A DNA stretch of 64,000 nt from Solobacterium sp. Lineage in GTDB: Bacteria > Bacillota_I > Bacilli_A > Erysipelotrichales > Erysipelotrichaceae. The notes under the pieces are model-generated. The model had not been told where the DNA came from and did no database searches. It saw only the letters and a program-made list of their open reading frames with translations. How positions within the stretch are numbered: position 1 is the first letter of the stretch; every line of letters starts with the position of its first letter. Positions 41,119 through 48,958 of the stretch are shown here, piece by piece. The position numbers and the translations under genes were made by a program. The stretch is from contig JAFWNG010000007.1 of the NCBI GenBank assembly GCA_017510405.1, positions 1 to 64,000 on the forward strand. The letters are read 5' to 3'.

Positions 41119-41149
41119 AAAAAAGATGCCCGCTGAATACCGGACATCT
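41119..41149 (-). terminator. Terminator of the redox operon
   Basis: Minus strand: AGATGTCCG paired with CGGGCATCT (one mismatch) around an 8-base loop, followed by TTTTTT. It is downstream of the lipoprotein at 41210 and marks the end of the TetR-headed gene series. Confidence 0.8.
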
Positions 41150-41209: not shown

Positions 41210-41629
41210 TCACTCGTTTTTGAAAAAGTATTCAAACTTGCCTTCTGCCCAGTCGAGAATGCTCTGGGAGGAAACCCCTTCTTCCGGCAGATAGTATTCC
41301 GTATCGATCTGTACATACTCACGGTGGAAGGATACCTGGATCTCATCCGTGCCTGTCACTTTTTCAGCAGGATCAAAAATGATGCGGTACAGCCAGTCGC
41401 CTTCCTGATCTGCAGGTTCAACGGGCGACGCTTTCAGCCGCAGATCCGCAAAAGAACGCAGCAGGCTGATCTCACCGTCCACATACATTTCCGAACCGTC
41501 CGGCCGGATCAGTTTCGCGGCGGCACTCTCCCGGATCCGCTCAGACACATCTTTCTCTTTCGTACCGGTACAGCCGGTCAGAGCCGCTGCCAGCATGCAG
41601 ACCAGCACTGCTATTGTAATTCTTTTCAT
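41210..41629 (-). CDS. Small lipoprotein of unknown function
   Basis: A 139-residue lipoprotein: signal peptide at 1-17 with lipobox ALTGC, then a soluble domain of about 115 residues (LLRSFADLRLKASPVEPADQ; VSFHREYVQIDTEYYLP) that I do not recognise. The start at 41629 is chosen by CGGAGAC and by the lysine-led signal peptide; the longer frame upstream is rejected. Last gene of the flavodoxin/DUF362 series, 73 bases after the permease. Confidence 0.7.
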   Translation of the reverse strand: MKRITIAVLVCMLAAALTGCTGTKEKDVSERIRESAAAKLIRPDGSEMYVDGEISLLRSFADLRLKASPVEPADQEGDWLYRIIFDPAEKVTGTDEIQVSFHREYVQIDTEYYLPEEGVSSQSILDWAEGKFEYFFKNE

Positions 41630-41702
41630 TTTTGTCTCCGCATTCATCCTTATATGCTGTATGGATCCGTTTCCCGCACTCTGATGCAGGTATTCATTCA
41701 TC

Positions 41703-42614
41703 TCAGAAGAAACTGCTGATCAGAAGACCGGCGATGAGCGAATACAGCATGATATAGACAATATAGCACGCGAATCGCTTCCACCCCATGCAGATCTTCA
41801 GCGCACCGAGATTAGTGATCTTGGTCGCCGGTCCGGTGATCATAAAGGCCGCCGCGCTGCCGAGGCTCATCCCTTCCGCAAGCCAGCTCTGCAGAAGCGG
41901 GATCGTACCGCCGCCGCAGGCATACAGCGGAACGCCGATCGTCGCCGCCATCAGGATTCCCCACGCTTCATTCCCGCCGAAGATATTTACCATCACATCC
42001 TGCGGAACATATCTCTGAAATAACGCCGACAGCAGGATGCCGAACAGAAAATACAGTCCGGTCGCTTTCACATTTCTCCATACATTCAGCAGATACCGTA
42101 CCAGCAGATCCGGATGCGTATCCCGGCTTTCCCGTTCCCGGAACCCGGTGAAATCGAAGAATTCCCGCTCCCGGCAGAACAGAAAGACGAGCAAACCGGC
42201 GCCGATGCCACAAAAGAAACATGTCACGATGCGTACCGAAAGAGCTGCTGTACCAAGCGCAGCGCTGTAAATGATCAGCTGCGGATTCAGCAGGATAGAC
42301 GCGGTCATAAAGGCTGCGATCCAGTCTTCCCGCATTCCCTGCTTTCGGAAAGATGCCGCGATCGGCACCGTACCGTACATGCAGAGCGGCGAAGCAATGC
42401 CAAGCAGGCATGCCGGGATAATACCCAGCACACCCCATTTTTCCTTCTGCAGTCCCGCAAACAGTCCGTGGATCCGGTCTTTGGCAAATACAGATACCAG
42501 CGATCCTATGAGCATGCCCAGGATCCAGTACCAGAAGATCTGACGGAACTGCACTTCGAAGTAATACCAGATGTAGATCAGTTCCCGGGAAAGAACTGTC
42601 CAGAGATCACTCAT
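41703..42614 (-). CDS. PF03773-family permease (ArsP/DUF318-like)
   Basis: A 303-residue membrane protein with about eight to ten helices. Two repeat signatures of the family are visible: SPLCMYGTVPIAASF near residue 75 and PLYACGGGTIPLLQSWLAEG near 230, plus ITGPATKITNLGAL near 260. Family members export organoarsenicals or other small solutes; bacterial homologues often accompany redox-active proteins. The gene overlaps the DUF362 lipoprotein gene by eight bases. Substrate unknown. Confidence 0.85.
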   Translation of the reverse strand: MSDLWTVLSRELIYIWYYFEVQFRQIFWYWILGMLIGSLVSVFAKDRIHGLFAGLQKEKWGVLGIIPACLLGIASPLCMYGTVPIAASFRKQGMREDWIAAFMTASILLNPQLIIYSAALGTAALSVRIVTCFFCGIGAGLLVFLFCREREFFDFTGFRERESRDTHPDLLVRYLLNVWRNVKATGLYFLFGILLSALFQRYVPQDVMVNIFGGNEAWGILMAATIGVPLYACGGGTIPLLQSWLAEGMSLGSAAAFMITGPATKITNLGALKICMGWKRFACYIVYIMLYSLIAGLLISSFF

Positions 42615-43641
42615 CGATGTTTACCAGTGTGTATTTCCGGCTGCCCAGGCCGATCTTTTCGGCATGTTCCAGAGTATGAAGACCGTTCTGCCGTTCAATT
42701 CTACGGATCAGAGATCCGCTGTCCGGCGCCTGATATACGAGGTCGATGCATGCCTGATCCACCGCTACAGGATCCGTGCCGGCAAGAATGCCGATGTCAT
42801 GCATATCCGGCTCGGCGGGGTTTCCGTCACAGTCGCAGTCCACCGACAGACGGTTCATCACATTGATGTAGATGATATGCTCTGCGCCGACATGATCACG
42901 CACACCCGTCACCATTTCCCCCAGCGCTTCCAGCCAGGCATCCTGGTCACTGTACCAGATACTGCCGCTGGTTTTCGTTCCTGCGGTATGAACATAGACT
43001 TTTCCGCTCGGCGAAGACATACCGATGGCGACGTTCTTGATCGCACCGCCGAAGCCAGCCATGGCATGTCCCTTGAAATGGGACAGGATCACCCAGTTGG
43101 TATAGTTCTCCGCATGACTTCCGACGATCGCGCGGTCCAGTCTGCTTCCGCCTGTTACCGGCCATTCGACTTCGCCGTCCTCATCCAGCAGATCGAAATC
43201 CGCAATGGCTGTGAAGCCGTGGTCTTCGGCGACCTGCTTATGCATGGCCGCGCTCGAACGCGAGCCGCCGTAGGCAGTATTGCATTCCACGATCGTACCG
43301 TTCACCTTCTGTACCAGATCTTTGATCAGTTCCGGACGAAGATAATTGCTTGCGGGCGGTTCACCCGTAGAGATCTTCACAGCGGTCTTACCGGACGGTT
43401 CCCAGGCAAGCGCTTCATACACTCTGACCAGTCCTTCCGGTGAGATATCAGACGTAAAGAATACGACGGGAAGTTCTCCGGACGTTTCCCGGGGATCTGT
43501 GCTTTGTTCATTCGTGCCGGCAGGTTCCTGCGTCTGTTCATCATTCGCGGAAGATGCGGCAGATGAAGCGGATGTCTTTGATCCGCAGGCAGTCAGAAAC
43601 AGCGCTGCGGACAGTGCTGCTGTCAGTAAAAATTTCTTCAT
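42607..43641 (-). CDS. DUF362 domain lipoprotein
   Basis: A 344-residue lipoprotein: signal peptide at 1-18 (lipobox LTACG), a Ser/Ala/Glu linker to about 60, then a DUF362 domain with YGGSRSSAAMHKQVAEDHGF, LSHFKGHAMAGFGGAIKNVA and GTDPVAVDQACIDLVY. DUF362 proteins are often linked to ferredoxin-type redox chemistry, but no [4Fe-4S] motif is present in this one; DCDCDGNPAEP near 270 could bind a metal. Start at 43641 follows AGGTGACC. Outside the membrane by its lipobox. Role inferred from the redox neighbours. Confidence 0.82.
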   Translation of the reverse strand: MKKFLLTAALSAALFLTACGSKTSASSAASSANDEQTQEPAGTNEQSTDPRETSGELPVVFFTSDISPEGLVRVYEALAWEPSGKTAVKISTGEPPASNYLRPELIKDLVQKVNGTIVECNTAYGGSRSSAAMHKQVAEDHGFTAIADFDLLDEDGEVEWPVTGGSRLDRAIVGSHAENYTNWVILSHFKGHAMAGFGGAIKNVAIGMSSPSGKVYVHTAGTKTSGSIWYSDQDAWLEALGEMVTGVRDHVGAEHIIYINVMNRLSVDCDCDGNPAEPDMHDIGILAGTDPVAVDQACIDLVYQAPDSGSLIRRIERQNGLHTLEHAEKIGLGSRKYTLVNIDE

Positions 43642-43651
43642 ATCGGTCACC

Positions 43652-44185
43652 TCACAGGCTTCTGCCAAGCTGGTACGCTTCCTGCGGAACTCGGCTGTGT
43701 TTCGTCATCGCCGGTGTTCCGCATCCGTATCCAAGCACCATTCCCATATCTTCCAGTCCTATATAACGGACAAGCGTTTTATAGTGCGTTTCCAGAGCGT
43801 CAAACGTCCAGTCCTCCGCGTTCCATGCGACGGTAAGTAGCGCGGACTTCAGATGTCTGCTGTTCAGACTGCTGTTATACGCGCAGAAGCGGTCGATGAC
43901 GGTCTTCAGCTGCGCGCTCATGCCGTAGTAATACAGCGGTGTCGCAAAAACGACCATATCGGAAGCCAGCAGTTTATTCCGGATCATTTCCACGTCGTCC
44001 TTCTGTACGCACGGTCCTTCATACCCGCATCGTACACATCCGATGCACGGATGGATATCCGCATGGCACACGTCGATCACGTCGCACGTATGCCCTGCCT
44101 CTTCCGCTCCCCGGACAAACTCTTTTACAAGAATGCCTGTCGAACCGTTTCTGTTCGGGCTTCCCATCAGTACTGTAATTTTCAT
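43652..44185 (-). CDS. Iron-sulfur flavoprotein (Isf)-like flavodoxin
   Basis: A 177-residue FMN-dependent reductase-fold protein: VLMGSPNRNGSTGILVKEF binds FMN at the N-terminus and FATPLYYYGMSAQLKTVIDR near residue 80 is the NADPH-FMN reductase signature. Between them HPCIGCVRCGYEGPC carries CX2CX2CX5C, the compact cluster motif of Isf proteins, so a [4Fe-4S] beside FMN is likely. Cytosolic. It sits between the DUF362 lipoprotein (ten bases) and the triple-fusion gene (twelve bases). Confidence 0.85.
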   Translation of the reverse strand: MKITVLMGSPNRNGSTGILVKEFVRGAEEAGHTCDVIDVCHADIHPCIGCVRCGYEGPCVQKDDVEMIRNKLLASDMVVFATPLYYYGMSAQLKTVIDRFCAYNSSLNSRHLKSALLTVAWNAEDWTFDALETHYKTLVRYIGLEDMGMVLGYGCGTPAMTKHSRVPQEAYQLGRSL

Positions 44186-44197
44186 TTCCGCCTCCTG

Positions 44198-46324
44198 TTA
44201 ATGCTCGATTCCGTTTGCGTCAAGCCACGCGGACACATCGTCCGGAAGAGCTGCGCCGCCGGAATAATGGATCGATAAGCCTTCCCCCATCACTGCGTCC
44301 GGGGCAAGCTTTGCAATTGCGGTAAGACTCTGTCCGAACCTTCCGCCGCCGTGCGAACAGAACGGAAGGATCGTTTTCCCGGAAAAGTCATATTCCTCCA
44401 GGAACGACGCGACCGGCATCGGAATGGATGCCCACCAGTTCGGATATCCCAGCAGGACGATCTCATAGTCTTCCATGTTTTCCACATGATCGGACAGTTC
44501 CGGTCTTGCCTGTCTGTGCTGGTCTTCCTGCGCTTCCATCAATACCGTGCTGTAGTCGGTCGAATACGGCACAGCCGGAACGATCTCAAAGATGTCTGCG
44601 CCGGTCTGACGGCGGATCTCCTCTGCGGCGCCGCGGGTATTTCCTCCCCATGAGAAATACGCGATCAGGATCTTCCCGCTTTTCTCACTCTCCGGAACGG
44701 TTTCGTATGCTTTTACGATCCCGTTACGGGGAGCTGCGTTTCGAACCAGACGGATGCCGAGATTATAGCTTCGCATATCTTCCTGCCCGGCGGCGCGGTA
44801 GGCACTGCGCATGTTCTTGGCAAAGTCATTCCATCCGCCCCCGCGGTATATATGCCGGGTGCCGGAGGCAGGTCCGGTCGGGTCTGTGACTGCGGCGGTG
44901 TCATAGGCGCCGTAATGATCCCAGCACCATTCATTGACATTCCCGTGCATGTCGTAAAGTCCCCATACATTGGGTTCAAAGCTTCCCGTCTTTACAGTCG
45001 TCTGGCGGTATTCGCCGGGCTTTGCCTCGAGCACGGAATTATCGAAATAATTCTCTTCGATCTCATACGGATAATGACCGTAGAAGTTGGCTTCTGTGGC
45101 ATCCATGGACTTTTCCGTATTGAACGGTGTAAGTGTACCGGCACGGCAGGCATATTCCCACTCCGCTTCTGTCGGCAGCCGGTACCCGTCCGCGCTGAGG
45201 TCCCAGCTTACGCCTTCTTCTGTTACCGTATATACCGGCGTCAGGCCTTCGTCAGTGCTCTTCGCATTGGCAAACCGTACAGCTTCCAGCCACGAGATAT
45301 TCTCTGCCGGCAGGTCGTCCCCGCTGAAAGCAAAAGGTGTCTCGCCGGTCAGCCGTGTATATTCCATCTGTGTTGTTTCGTACGGATCCATGTAAAACGC
45401 CGATACAGTCACGTCATGCGGTGTTTCATCTTCGATCCGCCAGTTTTCGGTTTCCGGACTTCCCATCCGGAACGTGCCTCCCGAAATCAGTATGAATCCG
45501 TCGTCGACCGATTTCTGTTCTGTATCTGCCGGCGCAGCTGTTTCCTGCGGCTTTGGACTGCCGGTATCTGCCGGTGCCGTAGAACTGCTTCTGTTGATGA
45601 TCATGTCTGCCGCAAGACCGGTGAGGACCGCCGCAGTCACCAGAAGAACTGGATGCACGGTCCGCTGATCATCTTTCTGTCTGTTCCGGAACAGTACTGC
45701 TGTCTCGGTACCGATGAAAGCCCAGAACAGCAGGATCAGGATGTTTTCCAGAAATACCAGCAGCCAGGACTTTTCATAGTCCAGGAACGCAAACGGCACC
45801 CGGAACAGCATATAATCCGGAATGCTGTTTTTCAGGAAAAAGAAGAAACCGGCTGCGGCGATGCCGCAGAAGACAAGAGACAGGACATTCCTTCTGCCCG
45901 CTTTCTTCGTAAATGCCGCGGTCATTGCCGGGATATGCAGTCCCAGGTGCACGCCCATCAGTACAAACGACCAGTGCGACATGGAAAGATGCATACTTCT
46001 GGCAAAAGACACGGATGCCATACCGTACAGGAACGGTACGGCATATCCGCTCATCGACATTCCGCAGAACGCTGTAACGGCAAAGGACAGCAGCAGTGCG
46101 ATCGTGATTCCTGTCGATACCATCCGGTACGCATTGTATTTTCCTTTGAGCAGAGCACCGTACCATCGTCTGTTCAGGATCTGATGGATCACGACAAGAA
46201 CGGTCATCCCGATGCCGATCCACTCGTGCGCCATTTCTCCGGTCACCTGATATGCCATCAGGCACAGCAGAGCGATCGTCATACAGATATCTGTCAGATG
46301 CCTTGCCATTTTACGATCATGCAT
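44198..46324 (-). CDS. DUF4405 membrane domain - SUMF1/FGE-like domain - flavodoxin fusion
   Basis: A 708-residue three-part protein. Residues 1-260: DUF4405-type membrane domain of several helices with His pairs (HEWIGIGMTVLVVIHQIL; MHLSMSHW; GVHLGLHIP), as in haem-b membrane proteins. Residues about 285-545: a SUMF1/formylglycine-generating-enzyme fold (ISGGTFRMGS, RLPTEAEWEYACRAG, NVWGLYDMHGNVNEWCWDH, YRGGGWNDF). Its end lacks the paired catalytic cysteines of true FGE. Residues 560-708: flavodoxin (KILIAYFSWGGNTRGAAEEI, GYPNWWASIPMPV). Start at 46324 follows AGGAGAACGGC. The topology and role are inferred: it could move electrons across the membrane. Confidence 0.82.
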   Translation of the reverse strand: MHDRKMARHLTDICMTIALLCLMAYQVTGEMAHEWIGIGMTVLVVIHQILNRRWYGALLKGKYNAYRMVSTGITIALLLSFAVTAFCGMSMSGYAVPFLYGMASVSFARSMHLSMSHWSFVLMGVHLGLHIPAMTAAFTKKAGRRNVLSLVFCGIAAAGFFFFLKNSIPDYMLFRVPFAFLDYEKSWLLVFLENILILLFWAFIGTETAVLFRNRQKDDQRTVHPVLLVTAAVLTGLAADMIINRSSSTAPADTGSPKPQETAAPADTEQKSVDDGFILISGGTFRMGSPETENWRIEDETPHDVTVSAFYMDPYETTQMEYTRLTGETPFAFSGDDLPAENISWLEAVRFANAKSTDEGLTPVYTVTEEGVSWDLSADGYRLPTEAEWEYACRAGTLTPFNTEKSMDATEANFYGHYPYEIEENYFDNSVLEAKPGEYRQTTVKTGSFEPNVWGLYDMHGNVNEWCWDHYGAYDTAAVTDPTGPASGTRHIYRGGGWNDFAKNMRSAYRAAGQEDMRSYNLGIRLVRNAAPRNGIVKAYETVPESEKSGKILIAYFSWGGNTRGAAEEIRRQTGADIFEIVPAVPYSTDYSTVLMEAQEDQHRQARPELSDHVENMEDYEIVLLGYPNWWASIPMPVASFLEEYDFSGKTILPFCSHGGGRFGQSLTAIAKLAPDAVMGEGLSIHYSGGAALPDDVSAWLDANGIEH

Positions 46325-46344
46325 TTGCCGTTCTCCTGTTCTCT

Positions 46345-46974
46345 TTACTGTATGCTTTCGATCCATGCGCGGATGTCATCTTCCGCTGTGCCGGCGCTGA
46401 ACCGTTTTCCTTCCAGCCAGCTGCCGCTGCCTGCGCGCTCTTCAAGATTCTTTCCGCTTCTTCCAAGTCCGCTGCTGGAAGATGTGCAGAACGGAATCAT
46501 CGTGATCCCGCTGAAATCATATGCCTCGGCAAACGTATCCATGATGCGCGGCTCTTCGCCCCACCAGATGGGATAGCCGATATAGATCCTGGTATATCCT
46601 TCCAGGGATACGGCTTCACTGCCGATCTCCGGCCGTACAGAGGCATCGTTCTGTTCCAGTGTCGTGCGGCTGCTGCTGTCATGCCAGTTCAGGTCCGCTT
46701 CGGAATATTCCTGCGCAGCTTTGATCTCATACAGATCTGCCGCTTCGATCTTAGCGATCTTCTCCGCAATGTCTTTCGTCGTTCCGGTCGCGGAGAAATA
46801 GACCACCAGGACCTTCTCCTGCGGTTCTTCTTCTGCCGGTTTCTCTTCCGGTTCTTTTTCTTCCTCTTTCGCGGAGGAACGCTCCTCAGCTGATCGTGCT
46901 TCGGAGCCTGCTGTACATGCCGTAAGACCGGTCACCAGCAGAAACATCATGAATATCTGTAATACTCGTTTCAT
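46345..46974 (-). CDS. Flavodoxin lipoprotein
   Basis: A 209-residue lipoprotein: signal peptide at 1-17 with lipobox LTACT, a charged linker of Glu/Lys/Pro (about 25-50), then a flavodoxin domain. VVYFSATGTTKDIAEKIAK binds the FMN phosphate; IYIGYPIWWGEEPRIMDTF and MIPFCTSSSSGLG are the second and third loops. Surface-exposed flavodoxin is unusual because most flavodoxins are cytosolic. It is 18 bases from the cytosolic flavodoxin gene and 20 from the triple-fusion gene. Confidence 0.85.
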   Translation of the reverse strand: MKRVLQIFMMFLLVTGLTACTAGSEARSAEERSSAKEEEKEPEEKPAEEEPQEKVLVVYFSATGTTKDIAEKIAKIEAADLYEIKAAQEYSEADLNWHDSSSRTTLEQNDASVRPEIGSEAVSLEGYTRIYIGYPIWWGEEPRIMDTFAEAYDFSGITMIPFCTSSSSGLGRSGKNLEERAGSGSWLEGKRFSAGTAEDDIRAWIESIQ

Positions 46975-46992
46975 ATTTTCCTCTTTTCTCTG

Positions 46993-47472
46993 TTACAGGA
47001 CTGTTTCCAGCCATTTCCGGATCTCCGCCTCATTCGGACGGTTGATCTGTACGCCTTTTACCCAGCGCACGTCACCGCTGACGTTCTTATGCAGCGCAGT
47101 ATCGCTTCTGCCGACGCCGCTGCCGCCGGACGTACAGAACGGTACGATCGTTTTCCCGGAGAAGTCATAGCTTTCCAGGAATGTTTCAATAATACGCGGT
47201 GCGATGCCCCACCAGATCGGGAAGCCGATGATCACCGTATCATACGCGTCCATATCTGCGACCCGGTTTCTGACTGCGGGTCTTGCGGATGCGTCGTTCA
47301 TCTCCACGCTGCTGCGGCTGTTTCTGTCCATCCAGTCCAGATCCGCTGCTGTATACCGTTCTTCCGGTTCGATTTCAAAGAAATCACCGCCGCTGATCCG
47401 GGCGATCTCCTGACCGATCCGTCTTGTTACTCCGCTTGCGGAGAATACTGTCACCAATACTTTTTCTGCCAT
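46993..47472 (-). CDS. Flavodoxin-family protein
   Basis: A 159-residue cytosolic flavodoxin. LVTVFSASGVTRRIGQEIAR near residue 5 is the phosphate loop, IIGFPIWWGIAPRIIETFL near 82 and VPFCTSGGSGVG near 111 complete the FMN site, the same architecture as the lipoprotein version next door, suggesting duplication. Start at 47472 follows GAAGGAG; the longer frame upstream overlaps tetR and is rejected. First structural gene after tetR. Confidence 0.88.
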   Translation of the reverse strand: MAEKVLVTVFSASGVTRRIGQEIARISGGDFFEIEPEERYTAADLDWMDRNSRSSVEMNDASARPAVRNRVADMDAYDTVIIGFPIWWGIAPRIIETFLESYDFSGKTIVPFCTSGGSGVGRSDTALHKNVSGDVRWVKGVQINRPNEAEIRKWLETVL

Positions 47473-47521
47473 AATCGTCTGTTCTCCTTCCTGTTCTGTT
47501 TTCAATTCCTTCCGCTGTCCG

Positions 47522-48145
47522 TCACGCTCCGAGAAGCCGGACGATACAGCGGAATGTGAGTTCATAAATGGTCTGATATGCAAACGCAATGCCTGCATCT
47601 TCCATCGCTGTTTTCTGTTTTTCCGTTACCGCAGTATACGGATAGATGCCGAACATGAACGGAAAGAACTCATAGATGAACTCTTTCCTTTCTTCGCTGC
47701 TTACCTGCGGACAGAATTTCTCAAGAATGCGATCGATGTTTGCAATCGATTTTCCATAGGCAGTCTTGAAGTCTGTGAGAAGTTCCTGTCTGCTGTTGGC
47801 TTCCATATCATACGTATTCATCGCCAGGAGTTTCAGAAGCTGTTCCCTCTTCTCCAGAGAATGTGCAATTTCCTCCGCTATCTGCCTCTTTGTCAATTTT
47901 CTGTTTTCTTCAATGATTTTTGCGAGATCCTCGTTCCAGCGTTTGTACTCCAGTTCAAACAAGGCAAGAAATATCTCTTCCTTTGTCTGAAAATAGTTGT
48001 AGATCGTCGGCCGTGAGAAAGACGTCACGTTTCCGATCTCTTTCAGCGTGATCTCCCGGAAACTCATTGTCTGATATAGTTTCTCGCAGGCATGTATAAT
48101 TTCCTCTTTGCGGGCTGCTGTCCGTTCAAGCGATCCTTTTGGCAT
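47522..48145 (-). CDS. TetR-family repressor
   Basis: A 207-residue regulator: N-terminal HTH at about 10-55 (REITLKEIGNVTSFSRPTIY then NYFQTKEEIF) and a helical ligand-binding domain. Start at 48145 is set by AAAGGAACAGAT; the frame can extend 14 codons upstream without a ribosome site. Two matching palindromes lie in its own promoter, so it probably represses itself and the flavodoxin series downstream. Ligand unknown. Confidence 0.9.
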   Translation of the reverse strand: MPKGSLERTAARKEEIIHACEKLYQTMSFREITLKEIGNVTSFSRPTIYNYFQTKEEIFLALFELEYKRWNEDLAKIIEENRKLTKRQIAEEIAHSLEKREQLLKLLAMNTYDMEANSRQELLTDFKTAYGKSIANIDRILEKFCPQVSSEERKEFIYEFFPFMFGIYPYTAVTEKQKTAMEDAGIAFAYQTIYELTFRCIVRLLGA

Positions 48146-48178
48146 ATCTGTTCCTTTCCTGCATCTCTGCAGTTTGCA

Positions 48179-48227
48179 TTCTGACATCGTGTCAGAAGTA
48201 GTATAGCGTATTCTGACACCGTGTCAA
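48179..48227 (-). promoter_or_regulatory. tetR/redox operon promoter with twin operators
   Basis: Minus strand: -35 TTGACA (48222-48227), 16-base spacer, -10 TATACT (48200-48205). Operator 1 TGACACGGTGTCA (48214-48226) overlaps the -35; operator 2 TTCTGACACGATGTCAGAA (48179-48197) follows the -10. Both share TGACA-N3-TGTCA. Confidence 0.85.
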
Positions 48228-48263: not shown

Positions 48264-48316
48264 TAAAAAAACCGCAGCGGAAACGGTATTTTTACCTGTT
48301 CTGTCCGCTCTGCGGG
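48264..48316 (-). terminator. Terminator of the prephenate dehydratase operon
   Basis: Minus strand: CCGCAGAGCGGA pairs with TCCGCTGCGG (one bulged base) around a long loop, followed by seven T. It lies after the NQO-like gene and before the tetR promoter. Confidence 0.8.
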
Positions 48317-48343: not shown

Positions 48344-48958
48344 TCAGATGCTCTTTCCGCTCACTGTAGTCTGCGCAAAGAGATTCTTTCCCCTGTCATA
48401 TGCTTTCTGAAGATTCCTGTTCCAGTTTCTCTCACGAAGTTCATTTTCTCTTGAAGTATTCCCGAAAACAACAAACTCCATTTCTTTTGCGCGTCCGTAC
48501 AGTCTGTCGCCCAGCATCACTCTTTTCATGCTGTCCAGAAGTCCGAACTGTTCGAGATGCTCTAAAGAATTCCCTGCCGAACAGAGTATGATCGCTTTAT
48601 CCAGCATCTTCATGGTCTTTTCGCCGTATGCAAATCCATACGTCCAGACCCGGTCAAACCATCCCGCCAGTTTCGCCGGCGCTTCCGTCCAGAACACCGG
48701 ATAGATGAACGCGATTGCATCGGCCGAATTGATCTTTTCCTGTTCCGCACGTACATCCTCAGCAGGTTCCAGTGTATTTCTGTAGTAAGCATCCCTGAGA
48801 TATTCCTGTTCCGTCATAGACGGATCAAAATTCATTTTGTAGAGATCTGAGATCATGTATTCATTGCCGGAATCCGTGATGCCCCGGATAAACGCATCAC
48901 ACATCTTCTTTGTGAAAGAATCCTCTGACGGATGACAATACACAATAAACACTTTCAT
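48344..48958 (-). CDS. NAD(P)H dehydrogenase (quinone)-type flavoprotein (NQO/YwrO-like)
   Basis: A 204-residue flavodoxin-fold oxidoreductase. VYCHPSEDSFTKKMCDAFIR near residue 6 is the family start, ADAIAFIYPVFWTEAPAKLA near 80 and FDRVWTYGFAYG near 102 are the FAD/FMN and quinone-site segments. Family members reduce quinones or nitro compounds by two electrons. Last gene of the four-gene operon with the lipoprotein prephenate dehydratase; three bases from the preceding gene. Confidence 0.87.
   Translation of the reverse strand: MKVFIVYCHPSEDSFTKKMCDAFIRGITDSGNEYMISDLYKMNFDPSMTEQEYLRDAYYRNTLEPAEDVRAEQEKINSADAIAFIYPVFWTEAPAKLAGWFDRVWTYGFAYGEKTMKMLDKAIILCSAGNSLEHLEQFGLLDSMKRVMLGDRLYGRAKEMEFVVFGNTSRENELRERNWNRNLQKAYDRGKNLFAQTTVSGKSI

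Follow-up and report, generated by a model that had tools for sequence, protein, structure and literature searches.

Genes for DUF4405 membrane proteins have been described next to apbE and genes for flavinylated Flavodoxin_4 proteins. In the available part of that work (PMC11334425), the DUF4405 proteins have six helices and four central histidines, one of them binds haem b, and flavinylation is suggested to serve mainly to prevent the loss of flavin outside the cell. Here we analyse a stretch of 64,000 nucleotides from Solobacterium sp. (assembly GCA_017510405.1, contig JAFWNG010000007.1, positions 1-64,000; the window), in which the region 41210-48227 carries an operon of eight genes headed by a tetR regulator. 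The operon shares with the described clusters a membrane part with conserved histidines beside an extracytosolic Flavodoxin_4 protein. Measured against the same part of PMC11334425, it lacks two of their defining features, apbE and the strict flavinylation motif, and adds a cytochrome-SUMF1-flavodoxin fusion, a TetR twin operator and a DUF362-permease pair. The statement of the original prediction that no such system had been described thus needs to be narrowed: DUF4405 with extracytosolic Flavodoxin_4 and haem b is on record there, whereas the present set, without apbE and the motif, is different. A description of this gene set was not found in open-licence PubMed Central papers.

We give about even odds to the reading that this is a TetR-repressed, inducible operon, which builds a transmembrane electron path to non-covalent FMN outside the cell and there reduces a small compound. 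If so, many gut bacteria would hold an inducible flavin-haem route outward that works without ApbE flavinylation.

Promoter, twin operator and regulon

The promoter match ahead of the operon (48200-48227, minus strand) agrees with the consensus at 11 of 12 positions, with a -35 box TTGACA at 48227-48222, a 16 bp spacer and a -10 box TATACT at 48205-48200. Two palindromes of the form TGACANNNTGTCA lie in this promoter, 32 bp apart, the -35 box in one and the -10 box between both. Operator O1, TGACACGGTGTCA, is a 13-bp palindrome at 48214-48226 that overlaps the -35 box. Operator O2, TGACACGATGTCA, also a 13-bp palindrome (48182-48194), sits just 3' of the -10 box within a larger palindrome, TTCTGACACGATGTCAGAA. 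The pattern TGACACNNTGTCA has only two sites in the 3.27 Mb genome, both at the operon promoter, and its reversed control gave none. Of the 315 genomes of the order that were searched, 27 contain the twin pattern TGACANNNTGTCA-N19-24-TGACANNNTGTCA, with 32 sites in all; no reversed-control site was among the matches listed.

Thirty regions were retrieved, covering the 31 twin sites other than the window's, and module genes were counted within 8 kb on one strand. At least one kind of module gene was present at 26 of these sites and at least two kinds at 24, with tetR not counted; once tetR is included, two or more kinds are reached at 25. A tetR relative stood near 21, a lipoprotein flavodoxin near 20 and an aldo/keto reductase near 15; five sites had no module gene nearby, and one had an aldo/keto reductase alone. 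The design was also followed through the named genomes, where a scan with the fusion protein gave 207 related loci, of which the best 80 were taken together with their neighbours up to 8 kb from the SUMF1 gene. An exact twin site was present in 47 of these 80 loci, with 48 sites altogether. Every one of the 48 carries TTGACA in the -35 position, followed after 15-19 bp by a -10-like hexamer (at least four of six positions); the distance is 17 bp in 43, and TATAAT is matched at five or more of six positions in 39. When up to one mismatch was allowed, 114 operator sites were counted across 55 loci. With up to two mismatches, an operator lies within 300 bp of 28 of 40 tetR genes, and for ten of the other 12 the pair is farther upstream; the tetR of locus L069 has a single operator site and that of L039 has none. 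The control on other ORFs (open reading frames) was not clean, since sites lay no more than 300 bp from 30 of 1069 of them (at least two sites in 22 cases); the 30 come from 28 loci, and many are likely first genes of the same operons. The reversed-pattern controls were therefore relied on. Taken together, these counts provide direct evidence, at the sequence level, that the loci share a promoter-operator design and belong to a single regulon, and the window operon is one member of this predicted TetR-type regulon. Four genomes (L172, L173, L168 and L180) have two or three twin-operator sites, which means that the regulon can span several operons. In L172 a twin site stands before a lone aldo/keto reductase gene, and some twin sites stand before a gene that was read by eye as metallo-beta-lactamase-like.

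The regulator itself (tetR, 47522-48145, minus strand, 207 aa) carries TetR_N, at 31.2 bits against a Pfam cut-off of 24, and TetR_C_34, and is the putative ligand of the twin operator. In the resting state TetR would occupy both predicted operators, the one over the -35 box and the one directly beyond the -10 box, and would thereby block its own promoter, for which the arrangement gives a strong argument. A small inducer would then free TetR from the operators, as is usual for the family. With the twin operator as a short DNA signature, the regulon can be traced in any genome; the same sites offer a direct assay for the inducer.

Behind this promoter the eight ORFs follow at 41210-48145, all on the minus strand and flanked by two terminator-like stems. 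The intergenic spacings from tetR to the gene of a small lipoprotein are 49, 18, 20, 12, 10, -8 and 73 bp, and the end terminator (41119-41149, minus strand) is a stem at 41149-41124 with a T tail. The Pfam families in the eight proteins are TetR_N, TetR_C_34, Flavodoxin_4 three times, DUF4405, FGE-sulfatase, FMN_red, DUF362 and ArsP_1. The original prediction had described eight tightly spaced same-strand genes with an end terminator, and the ORFs, gaps and stem agree with it. Pfam likewise bore out its three flavodoxin-type proteins, one a lipoprotein and one a DUF4405 fusion, its Isf-type protein with a CX2CX2CX5C motif, and its DUF362 lipoprotein, PF03773 permease and family-less lipoprotein. 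It did not mention the twin operator or the regulon, nor the LarA fold of the DUF362 protein or the carbonyl- and aromatic-type enzymes of many related operons. A chance gene cluster was rejected on the single strand and the shared operator.

Membrane part and flavoproteins

The fusion gene (44198-46324, minus strand) encodes a DUF4405-SUMF1-Flavodoxin_4 protein of 708 aa, and a full-length fusion at 63-70% identity is present in seven others among 70 genomes of the genus. Residue conservation was counted in relatives over score and coverage cut-offs only, which were 76 for the membrane part, 79 for the SUMF1 domain, 77 for the flavodoxin domain, 62 for the lipoprotein flavodoxin, 40 for TetR, 33 for the Isf-like protein, 16 for DUF362 and 12 for the permease among the 80 loci. 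The membrane part (45560-46324) was modelled as seven long helices (pLDDT 92.5, pTM 0.89), and its His33, His47, His112, His126 and His130 are kept in 76 of 76 relatives. A 66-row structure alignment, which used 65 of the 67 listed membrane-part segments with L056 and L062 left out, gave four histidines as invariant and His130 as near-invariant (at least 90%). The membrane part is thus a probable haem-binding one, as judged from these residues.

The charge distribution in the model favours an inside N-terminus and an outside C-terminus with the SUMF1 and flavodoxin domains. Segments were drawn by hand from the model; the inner ones contain 3, 4, 2 and 2 Lys and Arg residues, the outer loops 0, 0 and 2. 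Split relatives point the same way. Membrane part and SUMF1 form a single ORF in 65 of the 80 loci, and there are 16 separate SUMF1 ORFs, two of which (L045 and L048) are second copies. Of the 16, six (L103-L108) start with a lipobox, four (L045, L048, L092 and L093) with a Sec signal and two (L100 and L109) with an N-terminal membrane helix; the remaining four (L075, L091, L098 and L101) are unclear. These N-termini were read by eye; automatic flagging gave five lipoproteins, of which L101 was not accepted. The predicted location of the SUMF1-flavodoxin part outside the membrane is therefore well supported. The second copies (L045:1596-3656 and L048:6899-8962), SUMF1-flavodoxin proteins that carry a Sec signal and one more flavodoxin-type stretch, are encoded beside the main fusion gene.

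Flavodoxin_4 proteins are predicted on both sides of the membrane. The free one (46993-47472, minus strand, 159 aa) has no visible signal peptide, and 30 of its 31 relatives were flagged as lacking a lipobox. The lipoprotein (46345-46974, minus strand, 209 aa) has the lipobox LTAC, and 58 of 65 relatives were flagged as having one. The third is the C-terminal domain of the fusion (residues 551-702, 44219-44674), delimited by Pfam and conservation. In the flavinylated systems the motif, in the form D-x(0-3)-[ST]GA[ST], sits in an insertion of the outside Flavodoxin_4 protein. This strict form was found in none of 78 flavodoxin domains and none of 63 lipoprotein flavodoxins, the window counted in each. 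ApbE is not among the eight proteins, and apbE occurs in 2 of the 80 loci. From the missing motif we infer that the FMN is bound non-covalently; a covalent-flavin system was rejected, the strict motif and apbE being both missing. The lipoprotein flavodoxin of the window aligns without gaps to 3KLB, which serves as a non-covalent flavoprotein reference in the available part of PMC11334425. The single ApbE match of the genome is on another contig, away from the operon (L220:5080-6171, own genome C7), and has a lipoprotein-like N-terminus.

A further cytosolic candidate for electron transfer is an FMN_red protein of 177 aa (43652-44185, minus strand), which we take to belong to the Isf (iron-sulfur flavoprotein) family. 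Its CX2CX2CX5C motif (44009-44047; C47, C50, C53 and C59) is kept in 33 of 33 relatives over the score cut-off. It shares with Isf the FMN_red domain and the compact four-cysteine motif, and differs in being set in this operon.

A route can be drawn from these parts. The free flavodoxin and the Isf-type protein would deliver electrons to the membrane from the cytosol, and the DUF4405 part would pass them across on haem b, by analogy with the other DUF4405 protein known to hold haem and in keeping with the five conserved histidines here. The electrons would arrive at FMN, presumably non-covalent, in two outside flavodoxins, one tethered to the cytochrome through the SUMF1-like domain and one anchored by lipid; for their location, prediction and split relatives give good support. 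These flavodoxins would reduce a small substrate presented by the SUMF1-like domain, which would act as a conserved ligand-binding module instead of an enzyme. The original prediction of FMN carriers on both sides, a haem domain and an outward electron route is supported in part: flavodoxin-type proteins are predicted on both sides, the haem part is probable and the outward route possible, and use of an external acceptor is putative.

Several observations weigh against this reading. The DUF4405 match is marginal, 29.8 bits against a cut-off of 26.7, and the seven helices and five histidines of the fusion differ from the six and four given for DUF4405 in the available part of PMC11334425. Foldseek with the membrane model gave no solved structure at E <= 0.001. 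A second look at the fold mixed b-type cytochromes with channels: among the families listed, formate dehydrogenase cytochrome b stood at the top (Z 9.2, 132 residues, 3.0 Å) but was tied with PKD2 and TRP channels. A non-covalent flavin outside the cell conflicts with the flavin-retention suggestion in the same part of PMC11334425. Looser patterns do occur in the lipoprotein flavodoxins, [ST]GA[ST] in 6 of 63 and [ST][AGS]A[ST] in 27 of 63; neither is found in the 78 flavodoxin domains. The membrane part was within 8 kb of only 11 of the 31 other twin sites, so transmembrane transfer is not the core of the regulon. Weaker minus-strand promoter-like matches (9/12) lie within the operon at 47836, 45066, 44201 and 42725, which makes internal promoters possible, and terminator-like stems are also located within its genes. 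Promoter matches across the scanned region are at about chance level (10 observed, 8.0 expected), the one at 48227-48200 being the best.

Companion genes and the possible substrate

The gene counts in the 80 loci are lower bounds, the draft contigs often ending early, and labels other than those of Pfam are phmmer matches to window proteins or locus proteins. The membrane part accompanies SUMF1 in 77 loci, the lipoprotein flavodoxin in 64, tetR in 41, the Isf-like protein in 38 and the free flavodoxin in 31; DUF362 is present in 17 and the permease in 15. Enzyme genes are also frequent, with aldo/keto reductase in 51, CMD in 33, cupin in 30, flavin reductase in 25, amidohydrolase in 12 and ABM in 5. 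The companions share the strand of the SUMF1 gene, the sole exception being one Isf match, and such agreement is more than chance would give. The exact eight-gene set was not seen among the loci examined. On the recurrence of the set in relatives, to which the original prediction had looked, the outcome is therefore mixed: the modules recur widely, and the exact set of eight does not.

Since aldo/keto reductase, CMD, cupin, ABM and amidohydrolase genes lie nearby in relatives, the substrate is perhaps an aromatic or carbonyl compound. The same genes bear on a different explanation of the regulon, that of cytosolic and envelope detoxification, which we regard as tentative, with a probability well short of even. 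Here TetR would sense an electrophile or a plant phenolic, and the compound would be reduced by aldo/keto reductases, flavin reductase, CMD/cupin proteins and flavodoxins, with the outside flavodoxins and the membrane haem as accessories and the window operon as a version without the cytosolic enzymes. The frequency of aldo/keto reductase, CMD, flavin reductase, amidohydrolase and ABM genes in the loci fits this, as does the aldo/keto reductase by 15 of the 31 other twin sites. In TetR, Cys20 is kept in 40 of 40 relatives, which would fit redox sensing, and Cys200 in 37 of 40. Against it, the lipoprotein flavodoxin, predicted outside, is second only to tetR by the other twin sites (20 and 21 of 31), which argues that the envelope part is not marginal, and the window operon has no aldo/keto reductase.

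Two observations on the distribution of the loci may be added. Record titles name goat, sheep, deer or 'Lapin' (rabbit) for 29 of the 80 loci, which is a hint only, as sampling is uneven. In the SUMF1 tree, four copies from bins labelled Chloroflexota (L044, L046, L092 and L093) fall within Bacillota and form two separate pairs, which suggests transfer or misbinning.

DUF362 lipoprotein, permease and SUMF1-like domain

In LarA, Lys184 tethers the cofactor, His200 is the nickel ligand and a further histidine, His174, is catalytic, according to the available parts of PMC9283937 and PMC12611868, and DUF362 and LarA are placed in one Pfam clan in that of PMC11770544. The accessible part of PMC11796402 states that, of more than 1,000 genomes surveyed, about 15% combine larB, larE and larC with the absence of larA, and that these probably use the cofactor in other proteins. 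The DUF362 lipoprotein of the operon (42607-43641, minus strand, 344 aa) is assigned to the LarA fold by a structure model. In that model (pLDDT 76.2, with residues 1-54 below 50), eleven rows of LarA-type structures matched at Z 13.2-15.0 (one, 4nar, being unannotated), and the next rows fell to 4.3 and below. The top match was the malate racemase 7s91 (VIA Z 15.0, 206 residues, 3.3 Å), and the best Foldseek E value against LarA-type structures was 8.6e-05. Residues 192-218, HAMAGFGGAIKNVAIGMSSPSGKVYVH, align in register with the stretch HFFAGFSGGRKSILPGVASRVCVHYNH found in LarA relatives from the same genus, and the resulting motif H192-x9-K202-x15-H218 (42988-43068) places its residues on LarA His174, Lys184 and His200. 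The three residues are conserved throughout the 20 genus loci, its own included, and in 29, 29 and 28 of the 29 phylum loci, respectively. The protein shares fold and motif with the LarA superfamily of nickel-pincer nucleotide racemases (DUF2088); it differs in being a lipoprotein, in matching PF04015 instead of the LarA profile PF09861, and in an extra conserved DCDC motif. The hhalign alignment of DUF362 with LarA was in register, but its probability was 4% (E 0.011), and LarA did not come up when PDB sequences were searched with P0006 or its profile. In other genomes, PF09861 gave three matches below its cut-off, all of which overlap or adjoin a match to DUF362.

Gene neighbourhoods connect some DUF362 genes with the lar genes. 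In L254:3829-7393 a cytosolic DUF362 protein, larC, larB and larE form a complete run on one strand, with the three lar genes named by NCBIfam. The same order is seen in L256:2776-5822, where DUF362 is a fragment, and in L255:4035-7573 DUF362 stands in a one-strand run with larC and larE, named by NCBIfam, and larB, recognised by similarity only. No larA was seen by eye in the 10 kb stretches of L254, L255 and L256, where no search aimed at it was made. In L257 and L258, the latter with an interrupted DUF362, the DUF362 gene ends 2.7 kb before larE-larB-larC; these lar genes were found by similarity, and larC also by a PF01969 search. Among 41 good genus genomes, 34 have both LarC and DUF362, one has LarC alone, none has DUF362 alone and six have neither (Fisher p 1.6e-6, kinship not removed). 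The 14 of these without LarA divide into eight with both and six with neither (Fisher p 3.3e-4, again with kinship left in), and the association within the genus may be an effect of kinship. The window's own genome has larC. Over the phylum, DUF362 is present in 13 of 17 LarC genomes, but LarC in only 13 of 79 DUF362 genomes, and the 66 without larC speak against a nickel-pincer role for all DUF362 proteins. Relatives with membrane or lipoprotein N-termini occur in G383 (62% identity) and G057 (58%), both genomes without larC, and a cytosolic cofactor on a Sec-exported DUF362 protein is hard to picture.

From these data one could propose DUF362 as a second family that uses the nickel-pincer nucleotide, among the missing users where larB, larC and larE stand without larA, here exported as a lipoprotein, with the permease handling cofactor or substrate and the whole coupled to the extracytosolic flavin chain. 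Because larC is mostly missing and an exported protein would need a cytosolic cofactor, we hold this to be rather unlikely. DUF362 may use the cofactor in some genomes, and in most it occurs without larC. It is nonetheless a concrete, testable candidate for the question of cofactor use without larA, as posed in the accessible part of PMC11796402. A second DUF362 gene of the same genome (L218, C20:93949-94902), with 36% identity to the operon's, lies near nitrogenase-like genes as judged by eye.

The permease (41703-42614, minus strand, 303 aa; 8 bp overlap with the DUF362 gene) is of the ArsP_1 type, PF03773, with a match of 132.7 bits against a cut-off of 32.3. In the 80 loci it is found only together with DUF362 (15 of 15), and DUF362 occurs without it in two (L074 and L093). 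In the reading of an outward electron path, the two might perhaps form an add-on pair for the same or a related compound. Organometalloid or metal resistance, with the permease as exporter and flavoproteins that alter the redox state, we consider improbable. The ArsP_1 match and weak matches to the SO_0444 Cu/Zn and SaoE models are consistent with it, and Cys78 and Cys233 are conserved in all 12 relatives over the cut-off. The permease shares PF03773 with the SO_0444, ArsP and SaoE permeases, but falls far below the two NCBIfam cut-offs, with 113.2 bits against 300 for SO_0444 and 64 against 325 for SaoE, and differs further in being always paired with DUF362 in the 80 loci. Arsenic-type genes were not found among the other seven proteins, and a permease present in just 15 of the 80 loci cannot account for the other genes.

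The original prediction had also offered an envelope repair function, for which the operon holds no positive evidence. An MsrPQ-like repair of oxidised proteins, in which DUF4405 would be an MsrQ-like haem protein feeding an outside repair enzyme, recalls the MsrQ-like arrangement noted for DUF4405 in the available part of PMC11334425. It is very unlikely here and was rejected, as the operon has no Msr gene: neither MsrP nor another Msr domain was found in the eight proteins, while companion genes of the relatives were not searched for Msr.

The SUMF1-like domain (residues 276-528, 44741-45499) has as its best solved relative Treponema denticola variable protein 1 (2y3c, E 2.4e-23), presumably part of a diversity-generating system, with FGE next (6.8e-17); it shares with both a relation in sequence. 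It differs from them in lacking the FGE cysteines and in a strongly conserved C-terminal patch, WNDFAKNMRSAYR, each residue of which is kept in 77-78 of 79 relatives. A binding role for a fixed ligand, without enzymatic activity, would agree with these features. That the domain functions as an enzyme, of the formylglycine-generating or the sulfoxide-synthase type, served by the electron path is the least probable of the alternatives and hardly credible, the FGE-sulfatase match of 149.4 bits notwithstanding, given that the Treponema protein outranks FGE, that the stretch aligned with the cysteines of human FGE has no cysteine and that the conserved patch holds other residues. A formylglycine-generating enzyme was accordingly rejected, the catalytic cysteine pair being absent.

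The last gene of the operon (41210-41629, minus strand) encodes a small lipoprotein of 139 aa without family assignment, for which Pfam gave nothing over its cut-off. It was found in 8 of the 70 genus genomes, its own counted. Searching the 80 named loci gave no match, and one relative, in L168, is located downstream of another twin operator. At the other end, the gene directly upstream of the operon (48344-48958, same strand) encodes a Flavodoxin_2, NAD(P)H oxidoreductase-like protein and is followed by its own terminator-like stem (48271-48287, minus strand).

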